Source: Halothiobacillus sp.
GTDB taxonomy: Bacteria > Pseudomonadota > Gammaproteobacteria > Halothiobacillales > Halothiobacillaceae
Direction of reading: 5' to 3'
Assembly: GCA_011389965.1 (NCBI GenBank)
Contig: JAABTF010000012.1
Location: 1-55,731 of the forward strand
DNA: 55,731 bases
Shown here: positions 42,899-55,731 of the stretch, piece by piece
Layout of the letters: every line of letters begins with the position of its first letter
Position numbering within the stretch: the first letter of the stretch is position 1
Position numbers and translations under genes: made by a program
The notes under the pieces: model-generated
What the model was told of the DNA's origin: nothing
The model's database searches: none
Seen by the model: the letters and a program-made list of their open reading frames with translations, nothing else

Positions 42899-44470
42899 CT
42901 ACTCGCCAGGCTGAACTCTGTGCCGAACCTGGGCCACGAACCCGGCGATCAGCAGCAGCACGACCATCAGACCCAGGACCGGCCATGCGCCGTAGTGCAC
43001 CAGCGGCGTGCTGCCCTGACGGGGTGCCACCTCGTCCACCAGGATGCCACGGACCCCGCTGGCGAGGTGTTTGCGGACCCGGCCCTCTGCATCGATCGTG
43101 GCGGAAATGCCGGTGTTGGTGGCACGGATGACGGGGCGCTCGAATTCGATGGCTCGTGCTCGTGCCATCTGCAGATGTTGATGCGGAGAGAAACTGTCTC
43201 CGAACCAGGAATCGTTGGAAACGGTCAACAGTATCGCGGCCTGCGGCAGGGAGGGGCGGATATCGCGGGAAAAATCCGCCTCGAAACAAATCGAGCCGCC
43301 CAGACGGAGATCGCCGACCATCAACGGGGCCTGGTCCGCGGGTCCCGGGCTCAGGTCGGACATGGGCACGTCGAACAGCCACGGCATCATTTCGATCAGC
43401 CCACGCAGGGGGAAGAACTCGCCGAACGGCACCAGGTGCCGCTTGCGGTAATCACCCACCTCGTCGGGAATGCCCACCAAGGCGTTGAAGTAGCGACCGG
43501 CGGCATCTCGGCTAAAGGTACCTAATACCAGGCGGAAATCGTTTTCGCCCGCCATGTGCGCGAGATCGGCCCGTAGCGCCGGCAGGTCCTCGATTACCCG
43601 CGGAATGGCCGTTTCCGGCCAGACCACCAGATCCACCTCGGGCATCGCTTGGGTCAGACCACGGTAGATATCAAGGGTGCGATCGAAGAATGCCGGGTCG
43701 AATTTCTGCATCTGGACGACGTTGCCCTGGGCCAAGCCGACTGTCAGGGGGGCAACGGAAGGTGATGTCCACGAGACGGTCTGCAGGGGCAAGGACGCGG
43801 CGGGAACCCCGACCAAAATCACAGCCGGTAACGCCCATTGACGCCAGCTCCAACCGTTGGCCCGTACCCGCCTCACAAGCAGCAGTAGCATGCACGACAA
43901 CAGCAGCATCAGGCCGGTCAGCCCATATTCACCCGCAAGGGGAAGCCACCCGACCAACGGTCCATCGACCTGGCTGATCCCAAGATTGAGCCAGGGAAAT
44001 CCGCCGAACAGCCATCCACGCAGCATCTCGACCAGGACCCAACTCGCCAGGAATGCCAGTGCCCAGACGCCGAATGCGATGGAAGTGTCGTTGGCCCCGC
44101 GGGCGACCCTGGCGGTGAGCCAGGCCGCGACAGCCACATAGAGGGCCAGTCCACCAACGAACAGGGCGGTGACTCCGACCGCTGCCGGCGCGACGATACC
44201 GCCGAACAGCGTGAAGCTCTCGTAAACCCAACTGACGCCGAAGCCGAATTGACCGACGCCAAAAAACCAGCCGAGGCGAAATGCCCGACCGGGTGTTTGG
44301 CGGTAGATCAGGGCCAGGAGCACCGCCGGGGCAACGATGGCGGTGGGCCAGAAATGAAAGGGGGCAAAGGCCAGCACCAGTGAGGCACCAGCCAACAGGG
44401 CGAACAGGTTGCCAACCCAACGGAACCGCGCAGTCCCCGGTACGATACTACTGGCCACCCTGCTCCGCAT
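42899..44470 (-). CDS. lnt: Apolipoprotein N-acyltransferase
   Basis: Adds the third acyl chain to lipoproteins in the inner membrane. The 523-residue protein has six to seven N-terminal membrane helices and a periplasmic nitrilase-like domain with the catalytic triad: Glu in VWPETAIPR, Lys in RKRHLVPFGEFFP and Cys in GGSICFEADFS. The start overlaps the end of ybeX by 23 bases; an internal start is possible. It is last in the conserved miaB-ybeZ-ybeY-ybeX-lnt run and acts in the same lipoprotein pathway as LolB encoded elsewhere in the window. Confidence 0.96.
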   Translation of the reverse strand: MRSRVASSIVPGTARFRWVGNLFALLAGASLVLAFAPFHFWPTAIVAPAVLLALIYRQTPGRAFRLGWFFGVGQFGFGVSWVYESFTLFGGIVAPAAVGVTALFVGGLALYVAVAAWLTARVARGANDTSIAFGVWALAFLASWVLVEMLRGWLFGGFPWLNLGISQVDGPLVGWLPLAGEYGLTGLMLLLSCMLLLLVRRVRANGWSWRQWALPAVILVGVPAASLPLQTVSWTSPSVAPLTVGLAQGNVVQMQKFDPAFFDRTLDIYRGLTQAMPEVDLVVWPETAIPRVIEDLPALRADLAHMAGENDFRLVLGTFSRDAAGRYFNALVGIPDEVGDYRKRHLVPFGEFFPLRGLIEMMPWLFDVPMSDLSPGPADQAPLMVGDLRLGGSICFEADFSRDIRPSLPQAAILLTVSNDSWFGDSFSPHQHLQMARARAIEFERPVIRATNTGISATIDAEGRVRKHLASGVRGILVDEVAPRQGSTPLVHYGAWPVLGLMVVLLLIAGFVAQVRHRVQPGE

Positions 44471-45353
44471 CGTCGTCCTTTTCCTCGGGCTCGAAGTCGA
44501 GCTTTGTCACCAGCAACAGGTGCAGGCGACGACGGTCCGCGCCCAGCACCTTGAACTCGTAGGAACCGAGTCGGGCCACCTCGCCTCGACGAGGGAGATG
44601 CCCCAGGGTATTCGAGACCAGTCCGCCGATGGTGCCGTACTCGTCATCGGAGAAGTCGGTCCCGAACACCTCGTTGAACTCGGCGATCGGGGTGAGCGCT
44701 CGCACGGTGTGCCGCCGAGGGGCCTGCTGACGGATATTGATCCGCTCTTCCACATCGAACTCATCGTCGATATCGCCGACGATTTCCTCGAGCACGTCCT
44801 CGATGGTCACCAGGCCCGCCACGCCCCCGAATTCATCGAGCACGATGGCCATGTGCGTCCGGGTCAGGCGGAACTCGGCCAACAGGGCGTCGAGGCGTTT
44901 GCTCTCCGGCACGAACATCGGCGTGCGCACCAGGTTCAGCAAGTGGAATGACTCGGCCTGCTGTCCCTCTTCCTGGTGGTCGGCAAAGTAGTGCAACAGC
45001 TCCTTGACCAACAGGATCCCGATCACTTCGTCCCGGTTGGAGCGGATCACCGGGTAGCGGGAATGCCCGGTCTCGATAGCGGTCGACAACAGGTCGGGCA
45101 GCGACACGCTGTCCTCGACGACGTCCATCTGACCGCGAGGGACCATGACGTCGCGCACCCGCAGTTCATGGAAATCGAGCACGGAGTCGATCAGGCCACC
45201 GGTGGAGACCGGGAACACCTCCGCCTCAGTCGCCTGGTGCACCAGCGACTTCATCTCTTCGACAGAGCGAATCTCGCAGGGACAGAAGCGGTTCTTAAAA
45301 CGTTGCCACCAGGACTTGCCTTGCAAGCCCGGACTGGGAGGTTCGTCTTCCAT
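44448..45353 (-). CDS. ybeX: CBS/CorC-domain protein YbeX
   Basis: A 301-residue soluble protein with two CBS domains (VRDVMVPRGQMDVV, then PMFVPESKRLDALLAEFRL) and the C-terminal CorC_HlyC transporter-associated domain (IAEFNEVFGTDFSDDEYGTIGGL). It lacks the DUF21 membrane domain, as in E. coli YbeX/CorC. Family links are to Mg2+/Co2+ homeostasis and, for YbeX, ribosome-related phenotypes. It follows ybeY by 92 bases, the only sizeable gap in this operon; that gap has a direct repeat. Confidence 0.93.
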   Translation of the reverse strand: MEDEPPSPGLQGKSWWQRFKNRFCPCEIRSVEEMKSLVHQATEAEVFPVSTGGLIDSVLDFHELRVRDVMVPRGQMDVVEDSVSLPDLLSTAIETGHSRYPVIRSNRDEVIGILLVKELLHYFADHQEEGQQAESFHLLNLVRTPMFVPESKRLDALLAEFRLTRTHMAIVLDEFGGVAGLVTIEDVLEEIVGDIDDEFDVEERINIRQQAPRRHTVRALTPIAEFNEVFGTDFSDDEYGTIGGLVSNTLGHLPRRGEVARLGSYEFKVLGADRRRLHLLLVTKLDFEPEEKDDDAEQGGQ

Positions 45354-45388
45354 TTGGGGTATCTTTTTTAGAATGAAATCAGTGGATT

Positions 45389-45417
45389 TAGAACAAGGGG
45401 GACAGGAGGTAGAACAA
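45389..45417. repeat. Direct repeat TAGAACAA, 21-bp period, upstream of ybeX
   Basis: Copies at 45389-45396 and 45410-45417 are identical and spaced two helical turns apart, about 35-65 bases upstream of the ybeX start (minus strand). This could be a binding site; no regulator is known. Confidence 0.45.
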
Positions 45418-45445
45418 GACAGCTGCCGTTGTATGATCGACGGGA

Positions 45446-45934
45446 TCAGTCATAGGGATCGGAGTAGCCCAAGATGCGCATTACGCGAATCTCGATGGCC
45501 TCCATCTGGTCGGCTTGTGCCTCGGTGAGATGATCATAGCCCAACAGGTGCAAAATCCCATGAACCACCATGTGGGCATGATGGGCCCGCCCCGACTTGC
45601 CCTGTGCCGCCGCTTCTTCCTCCACCACCGCGGTACAGATGACCAGATCGCCCAGGTACGGCGGAGCCTCGCTATGCGCCGGCGCGAGATCAGCAACCTC
45701 CGGGGCGGCCGGGAACGACAGCACATTGGTGGGCTTGTCCCGTTGACGAAATTGCGCATTGAGACGGCGGCTTTCCTCGGGCTCGACGTAACGGACCGTG
45801 ACCTCGCCCCGTCGGGCCCCTTCAGTCGGTATGGCGTCCAGCGTTGCCGCTACCCAGCGCTCCAACGTGGCCACCGAGGGACAACGCCGAGTGGTCGCCC
45901 GTTGGCGATCCACCACCGCTGCGGATGTCTGCAT
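45446..45934 (-). CDS. ybeY: Endoribonuclease YbeY
   Basis: Single-strand endoribonuclease needed for 16S rRNA 3'-end maturation and ribosome quality control. The 162-residue protein carries the family block KPTNVLSFP and the zinc-binding MVVHGILHLLGYDH (three His). It overlaps the upstream ybeZ stop as TGATG, indicating tight coupling. The N-terminus is a little longer than in E. coli. Confidence 0.96.
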   Translation of the reverse strand: MQTSAAVVDRQRATTRRCPSVATLERWVAATLDAIPTEGARRGEVTVRYVEPEESRRLNAQFRQRDKPTNVLSFPAAPEVADLAPAHSEAPPYLGDLVICTAVVEEEAAAQGKSGRAHHAHMVVHGILHLLGYDHLTEAQADQMEAIEIRVMRILGYSDPYD

Positions 45935-46902
45935 CAGGCCGAGCCGCCGCCACGGCTTTCGTAGGCATCGATAATCCGTTTGACCAGCGGGTGGCGCACC
46001 ACGTCGCGGCTCTGGAAGAACGTGAATTGCACGCCCTCGACCTCGCTGAGCATGTCGATGGCATGCCGCAGGCCGGACGTCACCCCCTTGGGCAGGTCCA
46101 CCTGCGTGATGTCACCCGTGACCACTGCCGTGGTCCCGAAGCCGATGCGCGTGAGGAACATCTTCATCTGCTCGATGCTCGTGTTCTGCGCCTCGTCCAA
46201 GATGACAAACGACTCGTTGAGCGTCCGACCCCGCATGAAGGCCAACGGCGCGACCTCAATCACGTTGCGCTCGATCAGGCGATTGACCTTGTCGAAGCCC
46301 ATCATCTCGTAGAGGGCGTCGTACATGGGGCGCAGATAGGGATCGATTTTCTGCGCGAGATCGCCGGGGAGGAACCCGAGCTTCTCTCCGGCCTCGACCG
46401 CCGGGCGCACCAGCACGATCCGCTGCACCCGGCCGCGCTCGAAGGCATCGATGGCGCTGGCAACCGCCAGATAGGTCTTGCCGGTACCTGCCGGCCCAAT
46501 CCCAAAATTGAGATCGAACTTGCTGATCGCGCGCAGGTACTGAATCTGGCGCCCTCCCCGGCCGCGCACGATGCCGCGCAGGGTCTTGATCATCACCTCG
46601 TCACCCGGCGGAGGAGCCTCTTCCTCCATACCCGCCTGCTGCATGCCGAGGTTGACGCGCTCGGGATCGATGACCTGGGATTTGCTGACCTTGTAGAGAT
46701 CGGCCAGCAGCGTTTCCACCTGATCGGCGACCGCGGCCGGGCCGATCACGGCAAAGAGGTTGCCGCGATGGTTGATCTCCACGCCCAATCGTCGCTCGAT
46801 CATGCGCAGGTGTTCGTCGAAGCTACCGGCCAGGTTGGCAAGCCGCTCGTTGTCGGCCGGCTCGAGGGCAAATTCCAGTCGTTCAGCGTTCTGTTCGGCC
46901 AT
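45934..46902 (-). CDS. ybeZ: PhoH-like ATPase YbeZ
   Basis: A 322-residue P-loop protein that works with YbeY in RNA metabolism. It has a short N-terminal KH-like/PhoH-associated region, Walker A GPAGTGKTYLAV and Walker B SFVILDEAQNT, followed by TRIGFGTTAVVTGDITQVDL. Both ends overlap neighbours as TGATG (miaB stop to ybeZ start, ybeZ stop to ybeY start). Confidence 0.95.
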   Translation of the reverse strand: MAEQNAERLEFALEPADNERLANLAGSFDEHLRMIERRLGVEINHRGNLFAVIGPAAVADQVETLLADLYKVSKSQVIDPERVNLGMQQAGMEEEAPPPGDEVMIKTLRGIVRGRGGRQIQYLRAISKFDLNFGIGPAGTGKTYLAVASAIDAFERGRVQRIVLVRPAVEAGEKLGFLPGDLAQKIDPYLRPMYDALYEMMGFDKVNRLIERNVIEVAPLAFMRGRTLNESFVILDEAQNTSIEQMKMFLTRIGFGTTAVVTGDITQVDLPKGVTSGLRHAIDMLSEVEGVQFTFFQSRDVVRHPLVKRIIDAYESRGGGSA

Positions 46903-48347
46903 CAGGCTGCCACCAGCTTGCGTGCCTTGGCACGCTCGCGGTCGTTAGGGTGAATGTCGAGGAAATCACCCCGTAACGAGTTGGGATTGACCTGGGTGAT
47001 TTCAATGTCAACGAACAGGCCCACCAGGCCCGGACGACCACGGAAGATCACGCTGCGATTGTTCTCGGTCTTGCCCATCAGCTCGTTGGGGTCTTTCTTG
47101 GAGGGGCCCTGCACGAGCACGGTTTGTGTCGTACCGAGCATGGCCTCGGAGATTTCGTGCTCGAATGCGGTAATCCGGTTCTGCAGACGCTTGAGGCGTG
47201 CCTTCTTGACCTCGGCCAGCTGGTCGTCCGGCAGGTTGGAGGCCGGTGTCCCCGGACGGGCGCTGTAGACGAACGAAAAGGAGTGATCGAAACCGATGTC
47301 ATCGATCAGCTTCATGGTCTGCTCGAAGTCGTGTTCGGTCTCGCCGGGAAAGCCAACAATGAAATCCGAGGAGATCGAGATGCCCGGGCGCGCCTCGCGC
47401 AGGCGGCGAATCTTGGACTTGTATTCCATTGCGGTATGGCCGCGTTTCATCAAAGCCAATACGCGATCGGAACCGGACTGGACCGGCAGGTGAAGAAAGC
47501 TCGCCAGCTCCGGTACGTTGCGGTAGGCCTCGATCAATCGATCGGTGAATTCGACCGGGTGGGAGGTGGTGAACCGGATGCGATCGATGCCCTCGACCTG
47601 GGCGATCACCTCGATCAGCAGGGCCAGGTCGGCCATCTGACCGTCATGCATCGGCCCTTGATAGGCGTTGACGTTCTGCCCCAGCAGGTTGACTTCCCGT
47701 ACGCCCTGCTCGGCCAGGTCCGCGACCTCGGCCACCACGTCATCGAAAGGTCGCGAGATCTCCTCGCCACGGGTGTAGGGCACCACGCAGAAAGTGCAGT
47801 ACTTGGAGCAACCTTCCATGATCGATACGAACGCGACCGGCCCGTCGGCGCGGGGGTCCGGCAGGTTGTCGAACTTTTCGATTTCCGGGAAGGAAATGTC
47901 GACCACCGGCTTACGCTCGGCCTCGACCACCGCGACCATCTCGGGCAGGCGGTGCAGCGTCTGCGGGCCAAACACGATGTCGACGAACGATGCCCGCTCG
48001 CGAATGGCCTCGCCCTCCTGGAGGTCGGAAGAGCGTCCCACGCCGATGATCAGGTCCGGGTTCTTCTCCTTCAGCGGGCGCCACTGGCCGAGCTGGGAGA
48101 ACACCTTCTCCTGAGCCTTCTCTCGGATCGAACAGGTATTGAGCAGGATCACGTCGGCCTCGGCCGGATCGCTGACGGGCACGAAGCCACGGGAAACTCC
48201 GAGCACGTCGGCCATTTTTGCCGAATCGTACTCGTTCATCTGACAGCCCCAAGTCTTGATAAACAGACGCTTGGCTGCAGCGCTGGATTGTTCGGCTACG
48301 GACCCGCTTTCTACTGCATAGGCCTGTGTGGGCGCATTGGTCGACAC
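46902..48347 (-). CDS. miaB: tRNA-2-methylthio-N6-isopentenyladenosine synthase
   Basis: Radical-SAM methylthiotransferase that modifies A37 of tRNAs reading UNN codons. The 481-residue protein shows the N-terminal UPF0004 domain ([15 protein letters not shown]), the radical-SAM cluster [16 protein letters not shown] and a C-terminal TRAM domain. It has a ~25-residue N-terminal extension over E. coli MiaB; a shorter internal start is possible. First gene of the miaB-ybeZ-ybeY-ybeX-lnt operon. It needs two [4Fe-4S] clusters, which the adjacent divergent suf operon could help supply. Confidence 0.97.
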
Positions 48348-48670: not shown

Positions 48671-49201
48671 ATGCTCAAGATCAGCCGACTAAGCGATTAC
48701 GCGATCGTGCTGCTCACCGCACTAGCGAGCGATTCCCGGCCGGATAGCGATCCGCAGCGGGCGAATGCGCGTGCGCTCGCCGAACGGACCGGGATCAGCA
48801 TGCCCACCGTAGGGAAGCTGCTCAAGCTGCTCCACGGCCAGGGCATCGTGGAATCACGTCAGGGGCGCAGCGGTGGCTACTTTCTTGCCCGCCAGGCCGA
48901 TGCCATCAGCCTGGCGGAAATCATCGAGGCCATCGACGGTCCAATCGCCATGACGGACTGTTTTCGTCCGGATCATGACTGCGCCATGGAGCACGATTGT
49001 GCGGTCCGGCCACATTGGGCGGCAATCAACCGCGGCGTGCACGCCCTGCTCGACGCGACAACACTGGCCGACATGAACCGGCCCGTGGAATCCGCCCCGG
49101 CAGCCAGACAGGCCAACGTGCCTGTTTGGTACGAACGTAGCGATGATGACAACGAAGCCCAGGGCAGAAAACGTCGTCACCAGGGCGCAGCCACGTCCTG
49201 A
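48671..49201 (+). CDS. Rrf2-family Fe-S regulator of the SUF operon
   Basis: A 176-residue regulator with an N-terminal winged helix (LSDYAIVLLTALAS, GISMPTVGKLLKLLHGQGIV, SRQGRSGGYFLAR) and the three-cysteine Fe-S ligand set C-x6-C-x5-C in TDCFRPDHDCAMEHDC. It is of the IscR/SufR type found at the head of suf operons, not the ArsR-like cyanobacterial SufR. The C-terminal tail (~40 residues) is basic and longer than in IscR. AGAGGAG precedes the ATG. It probably senses cluster status and represses its own operon through the dyad at 48555-48569. Confidence 0.92.
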   Translation: MLKISRLSDYAIVLLTALASDSRPDSDPQRANARALAERTGISMPTVGKLLKLLHGQGIVESRQGRSGGYFLARQADAISLAEIIEAIDGPIAMTDCFRPDHDCAMEHDCAVRPHWAAINRGVHALLDATTLADMNRPVESAPAARQANVPVWYERSDDDNEAQGRKRRHQGAATS

Positions 49202-49276: not shown

Positions 49277-50749
<1,473 letters not shown>

Positions 50750-50798: not shown

Positions 50799-51554
50799 AT
50801 GGCACTACTCGAAATCAAGAACCTCCACGCCGAAATCGAAGGCAAGGAGATTCTCAAGGGCATCAACCTGACGGTGAACGCCGGCGAGGTCCACGCGATC
50901 ATGGGACCCAACGGCTCCGGCAAGAGCACGCTCTGCCACGTGCTTGGCGGCCGGGAAGGCTACGAGGTCACTCAGGGCACCATCACCTTCGACGGTCACG
51001 ACCTGTTGGAGATGGAAACCGAGGAGCGGGCCATCGCCGGCATGCTGCTGGGGTTCCAGCACCCGGTGGAGATCCCGGGCGTTAAGAATATCTACCTGCT
51101 GAAAGAGGCGCTCAACGCCAAGCGCGAGGCCCAGGGCCTCGACGAGGTGGACACGTTCACCTTCATGAAACAGGTACGGGAACTCGTCGCCAGCATGGAC
51201 ATGGACGATGCCTTCCTGCACCGCGGCGTCAATGCCGGCTTCTCGGGCGGTGAGAAAAAGCGCAACGAGATCCTGCAGATGCTGTTGCTGGAGCCCAAGC
51301 TGGCGCTGCTCGACGAGACCGACTCCGGCCTCGACATCGACGCGCTCAAGGTGGTTTCCGAGGGCATCAACCGCATGCGCGGCGAAGAGCGCGGCATCAT
51401 CCTGGTCACGCACTACCAACGTCTGCTGAACTACGTCGAGCCGGATTTCGTCCACGTCCTCTACAAGGGAAAGATCATCAAGTCCGGCGACAAGACCCTT
51501 GCCCACCGCCTGGAGGCAGAGGGTTATCAGGAAATTCTCGAGGAGGCATCATGA
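50799..51554 (+). CDS. sufC: Fe-S cluster assembly ATPase SufC
   Basis: ABC-type ATPase of SufBCD. The 251-residue protein has Walker A GPNGSGKSTLCHV, the Q-loop region GFQHPVEIPGV, the signature SGGEKKRNEI and Walker B LALLDETDSGLDID. Its stop overlaps the sufD start as ATGA, so the subunits are co-translated. Confidence 0.98.
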   Translation: MALLEIKNLHAEIEGKEILKGINLTVNAGEVHAIMGPNGSGKSTLCHVLGGREGYEVTQGTITFDGHDLLEMETEERAIAGMLLGFQHPVEIPGVKNIYLLKEALNAKREAQGLDEVDTFTFMKQVRELVASMDMDDAFLHRGVNAGFSGGEKKRNEILQMLLLEPKLALLDETDSGLDIDALKVVSEGINRMRGEERGIILVTHYQRLLNYVEPDFVHVLYKGKIIKSGDKTLAHRLEAEGYQEILEEAS

Positions 51555-52855
51555 GTCGACAAGGCCTTCCCGAATGGCTGAGCACCGCCCTGCCCGATCA
51601 CGCCGCCGCACCAGAGGCGCTGGCCCAGTCCGCGCGCCAGCAGGTCGAGACCATGGGCCTGCCGGGCCTGCGTGACGAGGAATGGCGCTGGACCAACCTG
51701 CGCCCGATCCATCGCGGCAACTTCAAGACCGCCCCGGGGCAGACGGCGCCGAGCGTCACCGAGGCCCAACCGGCCGAGGCACTCCCGCTGGACAACCCGG
51801 TCCGCCTGCGGTTTATCGACGGCATGCTGCAGGGCATTCCGGATGATCTGCCCAGCGGGTTGCACCTGGTATCGCTCTCGGATGCCGACGAGGCCACCCG
51901 CACCGCTGCCTTTTCACCCACTCCGGCTCCCAGTGCCGATGACCCCAACGACGCCCTGGTGACCCTGAACACCGCCATGGCTCGTGAAGGCGTTGTGATC
52001 GACGTGGACGCCAGCAGCGTGATCGAGCGCCCGATCGTGATCGAGTGGCTCGACGGTGCCACCGACGGGGCCATGAGCCATCCGCGCGTACTGATCCGCC
52101 TGGGTCAGAGCGCGCAGGCCAGCGTGATCGAACAGAGCGAATCAGTCGGCGACCAGCCGTCCTGGCGCAACAGCGTGATCGTCTCGAAAATCGCGGCCAA
52201 CGCCGCGTTGACCCACATCGCGCTGGGGCTCACGGGTCCGGCCCGGCTGTCGACCGAACGCTGCTTTGCCAGCCTCGAGCGTGACGCGCGCTATCACAGC
52301 TACAACATGCAGCTGGGTGGCCAGGTGATCCGACGTGAATACGACATCCAGATCGACGGCACGGGCGCGCACAGCGATCTGATCGGCCTGATGATGCCGC
52401 GCGGCAAGCAGCTGATGGACACGCATACCCGCATCGTCCACGCCGCGGCCGACACGACCAGCAACGAGCACTATCGGACCATCGCCGACGAGTCCGGTCG
52501 AGGCGTGTTCAAGGGGCGCATCCTGGTAGAACGCGACTCTCAGCGCATTCAGGCCTTCCAGTCGAGCAACAATCTGCTGCTGTCGGATACCGCCGAGATC
52601 GATGCCAAGCCCGAACTCGAGATCTACGCCGATGACGTCCAGTGCTCGCACGGCGCGACCATTGGTCGACTGGATGAAGAGGCGCTGTTCTATTTGCGCA
52701 GCCGTGGGCTGGCAGCGGCCGAGGCTCGGGGCCTGTTGATCGCCGGTTTCGCCCAGGAGGTAATCGACGAGATCCCCGATGAGACCCTGCGTTACTGGCT
52801 AACCGAGCGGGTACAGGCTCAGTTGGGCCAACATCCGGACGTGGCGGAAGCGTAA
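51551..52855 (+). CDS. sufD: Fe-S cluster assembly protein SufD
   Basis: SufB paralogue that completes the SufBC2D complex. The 434-residue protein has the DEEWRWTNLRPI N-terminal segment, the beta-helix core and the C-terminal VQCSHGATIGRLDEEALFYL then SRGLAAAEARGLLIAGFAQE signature. It overlaps sufC by 4 bases and sufS by one (TAATG). Confidence 0.97.
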   Translation: MSRQGLPEWLSTALPDHAAAPEALAQSARQQVETMGLPGLRDEEWRWTNLRPIHRGNFKTAPGQTAPSVTEAQPAEALPLDNPVRLRFIDGMLQGIPDDLPSGLHLVSLSDADEATRTAAFSPTPAPSADDPNDALVTLNTAMAREGVVIDVDASSVIERPIVIEWLDGATDGAMSHPRVLIRLGQSAQASVIEQSESVGDQPSWRNSVIVSKIAANAALTHIALGLTGPARLSTERCFASLERDARYHSYNMQLGGQVIRREYDIQIDGTGAHSDLIGLMMPRGKQLMDTHTRIVHAAADTTSNEHYRTIADESGRGVFKGRILVERDSQRIQAFQSSNNLLLSDTAEIDAKPELEIYADDVQCSHGATIGRLDEEALFYLRSRGLAAAEARGLLIAGFAQEVIDEIPDETLRYWLTERVQAQLGQHPDVAEA

Positions 52856-54120
52856 TGAGCGACGGTCGGCAACAGGCAGCGAGAACCGGGCTACATAGCG
52901 AGGGCTTCTCCGTGGATGCCATCCGGGATCAATTCCCGGTGCTGCATCAGGAAATCCACGGCAAGCCGTTGATCTACCTGGATAATGCCGCCACCACGCA
53001 AAAGCCGCAGGCGGTGATCGACACCATCCGCGAGTTCTACGAGAACGATAACGCCAATATCCATCGCGGCGTGCACACCCTCTCGGCTCGCGCCAGCGAA
53101 CGCTTCGAGGCGGCCCGCGCACAGGTGGCCCGTTCGCTCAACGCCGAGAGCGAGCGCGAGATCGTGTTCGTCCGCGGCGTCACCGAAGCGATCAACCTGC
53201 TGGCCCACTCTATCTCGCACGATTGGCAGGCGGGTGACGAGATCATCCTCAGCGAACTGGAACACCACGCCAACATCGTGCCTTGGGTGATGCTCAAGGA
53301 GCGCAAGGGCATCGAGATCAAGGTGATCCCGGTAGACGATAACGGCGAGCTGGAAATCGGCGCCCTGCCCGGCCTGCTCACCAAGCGCACGCGGCTGCTG
53401 GCGATCAATCACGTCTCCAACGCGTTGGGCACCATCAACCCCGTCGCCCGCATCACGGAAATCGCGCGGGAGCGAGGCGTGCCGGTACTCGTGGACGGCG
53501 CCCAGGGTCTGCCACATGGCCCGGTGGACGTGGAGGCACTCGGCTGCGATTTCTACGCCTGCTCCAGCCACAAGGTTTTCGGGCCCAGCGGCGTGGGCGC
53601 CCTGTATGCCCGCGGCGACTGGTTCGAGCGCATGCCGCCGTTTTTGGGCGGTGGTGACATGATCGAGGAGGTGCGGTTCGACGGCATCCGCTACGCCCCG
53701 CCGCCGTCCAAGTTCGAGGCGGGCACGCCGAACATCGAGGGCGCGATCGGTTTTGCCGCCGCGCTTTCCTGGCTGAACTCGCTCGACTGGCTGGCGATCG
53801 AACGCCATGAAGCCGCGCTACTCGCCCGGATGACCGACGGGCTAGGCTCGATCCCGGGTCTGCGCATCATCGGCACGGCCGCGCACAAGGTCCCGGTGGT
53901 TTCGTTCCTGATCGACGGTGCGCATCCGCACGACATCGGCACGCTGCTCGATTCGATGGGGATTGCGATCCGCACGGGTCATCACTGTGCCATGCCGTTG
54001 ATGCAGCGTTTTTCCGCCGTGTCCGGGACGGCCCGTGCTTCGGCCGCCTTCTACAACACCACAGACGAGATCGACCAGTTCGTGGCCGCGGTATCCCGCG
54101 TGCGCGACATGCTCGTCTGA
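52855..54120 (+). CDS. sufS: Cysteine desulfurase SufS
   Basis: PLP enzyme that takes sulfur from cysteine and passes it to SufE. The 421-residue protein has YLDNAATTQKPQAVID, the PLP lysine in CSSHKVFGPSGVGALY, and the catalytic cysteine in RTGHHCAMPLMQRF. These mark a group II (SufS) enzyme. The first ~15 residues are a tail not seen in E. coli SufS, so an internal start is possible. Its partner sufE starts at the end of the window. Confidence 0.97.
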   Translation: MSDGRQQAARTGLHSEGFSVDAIRDQFPVLHQEIHGKPLIYLDNAATTQKPQAVIDTIREFYENDNANIHRGVHTLSARASERFEAARAQVARSLNAESEREIVFVRGVTEAINLLAHSISHDWQAGDEIILSELEHHANIVPWVMLKERKGIEIKVIPVDDNGELEIGALPGLLTKRTRLLAINHVSNALGTINPVARITEIARERGVPVLVDGAQGLPHGPVDVEALGCDFYACSSHKVFGPSGVGALYARGDWFERMPPFLGGGDMIEEVRFDGIRYAPPPSKFEAGTPNIEGAIGFAAALSWLNSLDWLAIERHEAALLARMTDGLGSIPGLRIIGTAAHKVPVVSFLIDGAHPHDIGTLLDSMGIAIRTGHHCAMPLMQRFSAVSGTARASAAFYNTTDEIDQFVAAVSRVRDMLV

Positions 54121-54145
54121 CCAATCATTGCCGACGGAGTACGAC

Positions 54146-54691
54146 GTGGAACCAATGGAACGCATTCGGCTGAGCCGTGACGTGGTCTGCACCATGGTCC
54201 CTTCGGGACAAAAGGTGCTGGCCTCGAAGGACACGCCTGTCGAACTGATGCAAGCCCTTGGCGGCAGCTTTACCATCAAGGCCCGCGGCCACCTGCTGCG
54301 CGTGGAGGGCAAGGATGCCGATGCCCTGGGCAAGGAGCCGCCCCCGCAACCGGAGTTGCCCGAAAACGCCTCCGACGAGGAAGTCGAAGACATGGTCTGG
54401 GAGCAGCTGCGAGGGGTATTCGACCCCGAAATCCCGATCAATATCGTCGACCTCGGCCTGGTCTACACCGTCAAGGTCGAAAGCCTGCCCGTCGCCGGGC
54501 GACGCGTGCAAGTCGATATGACGCTGACGGCGCCGGGCTGCGGCATGGGCGGCGTGATCGCCTCGGATGCGCATCAGCGCATCATGGAAATCCCCACGAT
54601 CGAGGAAGCGGCAGTCGAACTCGTCTTCGACCCGCCCTGGAGTCGCGAGATGATGTCCGACGAAGCCAAGCTGGCCACCGGCATGTTCTAA
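54146..54691 (+). CDS. sufT: Fe-S assembly factor SufT (MIP18/DUF59 family)
   Basis: A 181-residue protein with the MIP18/DUF59 domain in its second half (EQLRGVFDPEIPINIVDLG, MTLTAPGCGMGGVIASDAH, FDPPWSREMMSDEAK). SufT proteins assist maturation of Fe-S proteins, especially under high cluster demand. I chose the GTG at 54146, with GGAG 6 bases upstream; ATG 54155 gives three fewer residues but a 15-base spacing. It follows sufS by 25 bases. Confidence 0.92.
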   Translation: MEPMERIRLSRDVVCTMVPSGQKVLASKDTPVELMQALGGSFTIKARGHLLRVEGKDADALGKEPPPQPELPENASDEEVEDMVWEQLRGVFDPEIPINIVDLGLVYTVKVESLPVAGRRVQVDMTLTAPGCGMGGVIASDAHQRIMEIPTIEEAAVELVFDPPWSREMMSDEAKLATGMF

Positions 54692-54806: not shown

Positions 54807-55160
54807 ATGAGCAATATTGAAGAACAGACACCGGGTGACGACTGGCTCCGCGTCTGCGAGAAACGCGAGCTCGCCTCGGGCGAACGTCGTGTCGTCGAGG
54901 GGCCGGATGTCGACATCCTGGTGGTCAATGTCGACGGCGTGATCCTCGCCGTGGTCGACGAATGCAGTCATCAGGAGCTGCCGATCTCCGAAGGACCGCT
55001 GGACGGTGACATCATCACCTGCCCCTGGCACGACGCCCAGTTCTGTCTTAAAGACGGCGAGCCGCTGTCCGCACCGGCCTACGAACCCATTGACTGTTAC
55101 GATGTCAGAGTCGAGAACGACACCATATACGTCGCCAAGACGCCCCGTGAGGCGAGTTGA
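54807..55160 (+). CDS. Rieske-type [2Fe-2S] ferredoxin
   Basis: A 117-residue soluble protein with the Rieske ligand pairs: C-x-H in DECSHQELPIS and C-x2-H in TCPWHDAQFCL. The ~16-residue interval between them is that of soluble BphA3/NirD-type ferredoxins. There is no signal or membrane segment. The ATG at 54807 has a weak Shine-Dalgarno; an in-frame TTG at 54768 would add 13 residues. It lies between sufT and the A-type carrier gene, suggesting a redox role in cluster assembly or being a prime client, but this is inference. Confidence 0.9.
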   Translation: MSNIEEQTPGDDWLRVCEKRELASGERRVVEGPDVDILVVNVDGVILAVVDECSHQELPISEGPLDGDIITCPWHDAQFCLKDGEPLSAPAYEPIDCYDVRVENDTIYVAKTPREAS

Positions 55161-55185: not shown

Positions 55186-55629
55186 ATGACCGCCGAAGCA
55201 CATAGCGCCCAACCCGCAACAGAAACTGCTACCGCGGTCGACCCGGCCAGGATCGACGCGGCCCGTGCCCGTGCCCGGGCGGTGGCAGACGACCAGCAAT
55301 TGGCCATGACCGACGCGGCCCGCCGCCATCTGGAACAGACCTTCAGGGGCGACAGCAGCGCCCTGGGTCTGCGGCTGGGGATCAAGAAGTCCGGCTGTTC
55401 CGGCTTTGCCTACGTCATGGATGCCGCCCGCGAGGTTGATGACAACGATCTGTGGTTCGATTGCGATGGGGTGGCGATAATTACTGACCAGGACAGCTTC
55501 GATGTGATCCGGGGGTCGACTCTGGACTACGTCGTCGAGGGTCTGACCCGCATGCTGCACGTCAACAATCCCAATATCGAGGACAGTTGCGGCTGCGGTG
55601 AGAGCTTTACCGTGCGAGACCCCGACTGA
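55186..55629 (+). CDS. A-type Fe-S carrier (SufA/IscA/HesB family)
   Basis: A 147-residue carrier with the three conserved cysteines: one in KKSGCSGFAY and two in the C-terminal DSCGCGESF. The core is ~105 residues; the first ~40 are an Ala/Arg-rich extension (DAARARARAVADD) not present in E. coli SufA. I chose the ATG at 55186 after GGAGG. By position it is the SufA of this operon, though ErpA or IscA affinity cannot be excluded. Confidence 0.92.
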   Translation: MTAEAHSAQPATETATAVDPARIDAARARARAVADDQQLAMTDAARRHLEQTFRGDSSALGLRLGIKKSGCSGFAYVMDAAREVDDNDLWFDCDGVAIITDQDSFDVIRGSTLDYVVEGLTRMLHVNNPNIEDSCGCGESFTVRDPD

Positions 55630-55661: not shown

Positions 55662-55731
55662 ATGGCCGACAAGGCGCCCACGATCGACGCCGAAATCAAT
55701 GCGCTGAAGGACGAATTCGCCTTTCTCGGTG
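55662..55731 (+). CDS. sufE: SufE, start only (cut by the window end)
   Basis: The first 23 codons read MADKAPTIDAEINALKDEFA then FLG, which matches the start of SufE, the sulfur acceptor that stimulates SufS. GGAGGAA lies 8 bases upstream. The rest of the gene is beyond the window. Confidence 0.75.
   Translation, partial: MADKAPTIDAEINALKDEFAFLG

Follow-up and report, generated by a model that had tools for sequence, protein, structure and literature searches.

The window analysed here is a stretch of 55,731 nucleotides from a Halothiobacillus genome, making up the whole of contig C49 of a 2.02-Mb assembly (132 contigs, 85% complete). Toward its end lies a suf operon, all of whose genes are on the forward strand. 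The operon opens with a gene for an Rrf2-family SUF regulator (48671–49201; NCBIfam TIGR02944, 137.2 bits, cut-off 110.65), after which come sufB (49277–50749; TIGR01980, 635.7 bits, cut-off 346.4), sufC (50799–51554; TIGR01978, 359.6 bits, cut-off 212.8), sufD (51551–52855; TIGR01981, 265.9 bits, cut-off 222), the cysteine desulfurase gene sufS (52855–54120; TIGR01979, 542.6 bits, cut-off 475.1), and a long form of sufT with a DUF59 domain, for which a GTG start is assumed (54146–54691; TIGR03406, 249.4 bits, cut-off 202.6). Next in line is the subject of this study, a gene for a Rieske-type [2Fe-2S] ferredoxin (54807–55160), followed by one for an A-type Fe-S carrier of the IscA/SufA/ErpA family (55186–55629; PF01521), which exceeds the cut-off of TIGR00049 and falls below those of the SufA, IscA and ErpA equivalogs. 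The last feature (55662–55731) comprises the first 23 amino acids of sufE, where the contig stops; the full-length gene of a close relative (L003:8856-9281) matches PF02657 SufE.

The gap between sufT and the Rieske gene is 115 nt and that between the Rieske and carrier genes 25 nt, with a ggagg directly 5ʹ of the carrier gene. A scan for promoter- and terminator-like sites, whose total was no higher than in shuffled sequences, placed none between sufT and the Rieske gene or the carrier gene. Many suf loci have a sufU gene between sufS and sufT (PF01592 was confirmed in both of the two tested); unlike many relatives (L072, L091), the window has none there (54120–54146) and instead carries the sufE start downstream. 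Upstream of the operon, on the reverse strand (44448–48347), lie ORFs that by eye resemble MiaB, PhoH, YbeY and CorC. The MiaB-like neighbor, if so named, would be an adjoining Fe-S client.

The Rieske reading frame is open and in frame on the forward strand and encodes 117 amino acids. The Pfam Rieske family PF00355 matches the product with an E-value of 6e-18 (64.9 bits, cut-off 20.3), and the cluster motif, C53-S-H55 ... C72-P-W-H75, contains the only two histidines of the protein. Its cluster loops, CSHQEL and CPWH, lack the disulfide cysteines, whereas those of PetA from the same genome read CTHLGC and CPCH. An AlphaFold model built with 37 sequences (pLDDT 92.8) is a single domain whose top fold matches in the PDB are dioxygenase ferredoxins, the closest being 7bui chain E, the carbazole dioxygenase ferredoxin (TM 0.85 by query length); in a PDB sequence search, the best matches are the toluene and biphenyl dioxygenase ferredoxins. 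With the toluene, biphenyl, and carbazole dioxygenase ferredoxins 3dqy, 1fqt, 2e4p, and 1vck, the protein shares the fold (TM 0.77 to 0.84 by query length), the ligands, the single domain, and the absence of a cluster-loop disulfide. However, identity to them is 31 to 35%, and the window protein has a PA[YF] motif where theirs is PAC, PPC or SPC. By sequence and predicted fold, then, the gene encodes an oxygenase-type Rieske [2Fe-2S] ferredoxin, and its family membership implies a low-potential electron carrier, expected near −150 mV and presumably cytosolic. The sequence-only reading, which had described a soluble Rieske [2Fe-2S] protein encoded in the suf gene series, with sufT on one side and the A-type carrier on the other, is borne out by the ORF, the PF00355 match, and the profiles of the neighboring genes.

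Three more specific identities were considered and set aside. The best NCBIfam match of the protein is the HcaC model NF042948, with a score of 87.3 bits that is below the cut-off of 150, and no match to a PF00848 alpha subunit is present in the 85%-complete genome. The NirD model TIGR02378 scores 43.9 bits against a cut-off of 74.65. The protein is likewise not an adrenodoxin-type Cys4 ISC ferredoxin (TIGR02007), since its fold and ligands are those of a Rieske protein; the proposal that it works like one is unaffected by this.

The position of the gene is conserved among close relatives. It is present in nine of the 10 other genomes of the genus and lies after sufT in all nine; the tenth genome is 64% complete. 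Within the same family, it follows sufT in all eight genomes of a second genus (g4), and two further genera have no match (one of one genome in g2 and five of five in g3). A collection search returned nine loci, and in the six assigned to Guyparkeria, Halothiobacillus or Halothiobacillaceae the gene always occupies its place in the suf operon. The archaeal relatives (L009 to L011; 35–38% identity) have no suf gene nearby in any of the three.

Across the Gammaproteobacteria, sampled as 114 genomes with one per family, a suf-linked Rieske gene occurs in at least 31 families, the window's genome counted. This figure is a lower bound, since 38 regions around the best matches were typed and the weaker matches were partly covered; 30 of the 38 have the Rieske gene on the same strand, inside or directly ending a suf cluster, and the window brings the total to 31. 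One of these linkages rests on SufT alone on a short contig (G116), and in another genome (G062) the contig ends within the Rieske gene. Some Rieske protein was matched by a dedicated profile, A1, in 81 of the 114 genomes; sufB exceeded its cut-off in 66, or was matched in 70 once weaker and fragmentary sequences are counted, and SufT-like matches were present in 75, of which 27 exceed the long-SufT cut-off. A suf-linked Rieske gene is found in 31 of 70 SUF-bearing genomes. The other 39 lack a linked Rieske gene, so whatever role the protein has is not universal. Among A1 matches of at least 110 bits, 28 of 31 are suf-linked, and three linked matches score lower (G062, G041, and G087); this separation arises partly by construction, because 15 of the 16 proteins from which the profile was built were already known from suf clusters. 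The three exceptions above 110 bits are G032 and G093, which are fragmented assemblies, and a second copy in G064, which has a SufT-like ORF 1.9 kb away. Chance adjacency of the Rieske and suf genes is excluded by this recurrence across no fewer than 31 of the 114 families.

In 27 of the 31 linked genomes, the window included, the Rieske gene comes after sufT in gene order, and in 23 of 26 fetched loci with that order the gap is below 150 nt (median 15 nt; starts were taken from the longest ORF, so some overlaps are artifacts). One locus (L101) has a gap of 614 nt and a Rieske gene cut by the contig end, and another (L096) has an inserted ORF between the two genes, which by eye is a short DUF559-type endonuclease-like frame (L096:7601-7978). 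Four linked loci have no sufT before the Rieske gene, which is preceded instead by genes for Nfu (L081), a SufU-like ORF assigned by sequence resemblance (L083), SufS (L106) or a GNAT protein (L097). At the first of these (L081:6885-7523, genome G045), an Nfu with Nfu_N and NifU domains replaces SufT between a SufU-like ORF and the Rieske gene, and a TIGR03406 match is not reported for that genome. The GNAT acetyltransferase gene between sufS and the Rieske gene in L097 (G036) recurs on a Xanthomonas sacchari plasmid (L180). In G053, another Rieske-like ORF, with a weaker match, is found 1.4 kb downstream of the suf-linked gene (L100:9136-9378). In three loci (L072, L073, and L099), the Rieske gene is followed by what, by eye, are presumably nucleoside diphosphate kinase-like and RlmN-like genes.

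The linkage also extends beyond the class. A draw of 120 genomes across the phylum yielded 27 new loci, 26 of them outside the Gammaproteobacteria, and 22 of these 26 have SufT, SufU, SufS or SufD within a 1.5-kb flank; 24 of the 26 come from one family, f127. In 10 of the 24 f127 loci (L111, L113, L114, L117, L118, L119, L122, L123, L124, and L125), a gene for an NnrS-like membrane protein, matched by PF05940 in both of the two tested, lies directly upstream of the Rieske gene. Further upstream, on the other side of the NnrS-like gene, sufT is present in nine of the 10 loci, and the flank of the tenth is too short to tell. Such a neighbor may tie SUF to nitrosative stress.

Plasmids carry the arrangement as well. 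Neighborhoods were examined in five records out of several hundred with a Rieske match, plus one Streptomyces plasmid, on which the Rieske protein is not near suf; coverage of the Actinomycetota comes from the literature. On a plasmid of Paraburkholderia sp. PGU19 (NZ_AP023183), the RefSeq order is regulator, sufB, sufC, sufD, cysteine desulfurase, sufU, SUF protein, Rieske, and Cupriavidus oxalaticus NZ_CP038636, typed in this analysis, has the same order; on the Xanthomonas sacchari plasmid, it is sufB, sufC, sufD, sufS, GNAT, Rieske. The two large Burkholderiaceae plasmids (L179, NZ_AP023183.1; L181, NZ_CP038636.1), which carry the whole suf operon with the Rieske gene, are classed as mobilizable, and the genes may thus be transferred together. 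As context controls, two Rieske genes on Rhodococcus plasmids adjoin genes for oxygenase alpha and beta subunits, and their products have no PA[YF] motif. The sequence-only reading had suggested surveying suf operons for this gene, with an adjacency confined to this strain counting against its proposal; such confinement is excluded, because the survey finds the adjacency in 31 or more of 114 gammaproteobacterial families, beyond that class, and on plasmids of Burkholderiaceae and Xanthomonas. By gene content, there is a type of SUF operon with a Rieske ferredoxin of its own that is spread far wider than one strain.

Most suf-linked Rieske ferredoxins form one main clade, as judged from a tree of 79 chosen proteins, a non-random sample with few alignment columns and 15 of 76 inner branches well supported. 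Of the 46 correctly extracted suf-linked proteins, 45 fall in a clade of 49 whose support (90/87) is below the starred level; the one outside is L106. Inside the clade are four rows labeled unlinked (L073, L087, L104, and L105), two of which, L073 and L087, come from fragmented genomes. The suf-linkage label changes seven times on the tree compared with 25.1 times in shuffles, a count that includes a mis-extracted row, L102, which was disregarded in the clade count. The four PDB oxygenase ferredoxins form a separate group with a support of 98/72. After the second cluster loop, PA[YF] occurs in 46 of 47 suf-labeled rows as extracted, the exception being the mis-extracted L102, whose true sequence has PPAY; it occurs in four of the 28 unlinked rows and is absent from the six oxygenase ferredoxins compared (four from the PDB and two from Rhodococcus).

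Within the open-access literature searched, with subscription literature mostly outside it, two papers among the matches listed were found to tie a Rieske ferredoxin to suf genes, judging from the parts available. In one, Fdx4 of Streptomyces peucetius is a Rieske ferredoxin of the suf cluster, over-expressed 4.4-fold on inactivation of sufR; it is reported to be the natural redox partner of the P450 DoxA, together with the reductase FdR3 (excerpts of PMC12979805). Fdx4 resembles the window protein in being a Rieske-type ferredoxin encoded with suf genes, but it comes from another phylum and is shown as a P450 partner; as described in those excerpts, it shows a working electron carrier under suf control that is able to serve clients outside SUF. 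In the other, three of 761 SufT proteins have an N-terminal Rieske ferredoxin domain (architecture S7; PMC4982691, available in part), so that the same domains are joined there that are separate genes in the window. What is already in print, as far as these partial sources go, is the suf-linked Fdx4 and the three Rieske–SufT fusions.

In the 85%-complete genome of the window, there is no match to the oxygenase family PF00848, the P450 family PF00067, the BphA4-type reductase PF14759 or the ISC ferredoxin TIGR02007, and an absent match could be a gap in the assembly. The genome has two Rieske-domain proteins, the ferredoxin of the window and the bc1 subunit PetA, which is encoded beside cytochrome b. 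An additional weak Rieske match, located in a frame of 422 aa, occurs in two relatives from the genus (G003:C1:344632-344919 and G010:C214:15300-15587) and perhaps belongs to a larger Rieske enzyme. By eye, no ferredoxin reductase is found among the ORFs displayed downstream of the linked Rieske genes; downstream in L085 there is one flavoprotein-like ORF, on the other strand. Nor was a substitute ferredoxin seen by eye in suf loci without a linked Rieske gene, in a search of 20 loci from the 39 such genomes, of which 15 showed an ORF after sufT and five showed nothing; two of the 15 (L139 and L156) have sufT and no other suf gene. An ISC ferredoxin exceeds its cut-off in three of the 31 linked genomes, leaving 28 without one. 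Rieske and ISC ferredoxins are anti-correlated over the 114 genomes (p 3e-5), and this was discarded as evidence because it vanishes within SUF genomes (three of 31 linked and six of 39 unlinked, p 0.72); the overall pattern arises because SUF and ISC tend to exclude each other.

A 2021 review, in its available portion, describes the donors of electrons to NifU and SufBC2D as unknown (PMC8593673); the sequence-only reading had remarked that donors for Suf assembly are poorly defined. With moderate confidence, and from gene order and sequence, we propose that the window gene encodes a dedicated soluble Rieske ferredoxin that supplies SUF with single electrons, a candidate counterpart of isc fdx. 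Like the ISC ferredoxin, it is a small [2Fe-2S] ferredoxin of a cluster-assembly operon, for which the same role is proposed. The two are unrelated in fold, and the ISC ferredoxin binds its cluster through four cysteines, whereas the window protein would use two histidines and two cysteines. The Rieske ferredoxin would accept electrons from a cellular reductase and then pass them to a SUF component. The reductase is proposed not to be of the BphA4 type, because the window's genome has none; PF14759 matches occur in five of the 31 linked genomes.

One possible acceptor would be the persulfide on SufBCD, with sulfane sulfur reduced on the scaffold. Another would be a late step at SufT or at a carrier of the A-type or Nfu kind, in which a [4Fe-4S] cluster is made from two [2Fe-2S] clusters. 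Both the sulfur reduction and this joining of clusters on carriers need electrons. The frequent place of the gene directly after sufT mildly favors the late step, and having SufT, Nfu or an A-type carrier encoded next to it leans the same way, together with the Rieske–SufT fusions noted above (3/761; PMC4982691, in part). As the four linked loci without sufT in the cluster indicate, SufT cannot be the sole partner. Rieske centers are given a range of −150 to +400 mV, above that of [2Fe-2S] ferredoxins, in the available part of one source (PMC11138216), and such potentials may be too high for persulfide reduction. Also weighing against the donor proposal are the 39 of 70 SUF-bearing genomes that lack a linked Rieske gene, the six genomes of the window's family with no match, the archaeal relatives away from suf genes, the failure to recognize a reductase by eye in the ORFs downstream, and the P450 partner of Fdx4.

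Several other roles would place a Rieske ferredoxin in a suf operon. It could be a general-purpose ferredoxin with partners outside SUF (oxygenases, P450s, desaturases or radical enzymes), encoded in the suf operon for co-production with the cluster supply. We regard this as rather improbable, even though its nearest relatives in fold and sequence are oxygenase ferredoxins and the Streptomyces example, in the partial account of PMC12979805, serves a P450. Among the 31 linked genomes, PF00848 is found in six and P450s in 10; however, 17 of the 31, the window's included, have neither, and SUF genomes with a linked Rieske gene have these families no more often than those without (p 1.0 and 0.46). 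Since the frequencies of PF00848, P450, and PF14759 do not differ from those in other SUF genomes, the linked ferredoxin appears untied to them, and the oxygenase ferredoxins compared lie outside its subfamily. An unrelated oxygenase as partner, which the sequence-only reading had set against a role in cluster assembly, thus fares unevenly: none was seen, and an oxygenase or P450 partner in the window's genome was rejected for want of a PF00848 or PF00067 match, the only families tried, but Fdx4 does serve a P450 (PMC12979805, in part), which makes partners outside SUF possible. A still less favored variant, in our view the least probable reading of all, is that the protein is a true oxygenase ferredoxin subunit placed here by chance. 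That is how RefSeq names the suf-linked relatives in Paraburkholderia and Xanthomonas ("non-heme iron oxygenase ferredoxin subunit"), and HcaC is the best NCBIfam match; yet the HcaC score falls well short of the cut-off, the genome lacks PF00848, the linkage recurs in at least 31 families, and the Rhodococcus proteins that do sit beside oxygenase alpha and beta genes lack PA[YF]. The "oxygenase" product name that annotation gives to such genes is probably wrong here.

Alternatively, by analogy with NEET proteins, the two-histidine cluster might be received from SufBCD and then passed on or held for repair. The gene adjoins those for factors of the late step (SufT, an A-type carrier or Nfu), and in mitoNEET, labile and transferable clusters are associated with histidine ligation (PMC11138216, in part). 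Nevertheless, the protein has the cluster loops, fold, and ligands of Rieske ferredoxins that carry electrons, and Fdx4 carries electrons in Streptomyces (PMC12979805, in part), so that a storage or transfer protein seems unlikely. Even more doubtful is a role as sensor or early client, in which the protein would signal the supply of clusters or the oxidative state to the operon: an Rrf2-type regulator is co-located in the window and in many loci, and the NnrS-like gene between sufT and the Rieske gene in f127 hints at a nitrosative-stress link, but the protein lacks an output domain, an Rrf2 regulator is already encoded in the operon, and outside the window's family the gene is mostly the last among the suf genes, away from the regulator. 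Given that SUF operons retain the ferredoxin even in families that have no such oxygenases, an electron donor to SUF is the simplest account.

Extended beyond the window, the electron-donor proposal becomes more tentative. It is conceivable, if hardly the likeliest outcome on comparative sequence evidence, that many SUF systems own an overlooked Rieske ferredoxin that gives single electrons for converting [2Fe-2S] to [4Fe-4S] clusters on SufT, A-type or Nfu proteins, and that SUF and ISC independently recruited unrelated ferredoxins to one and the same step; its annotation as an oxygenase subunit would explain why it was missed. A donor role in SUF would correct that misleading product name. 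With a suf-cluster ferredoxin in 31 of 70 SUF-bearing gammaproteobacterial families, the donor question becomes one that can be tested gene by gene.
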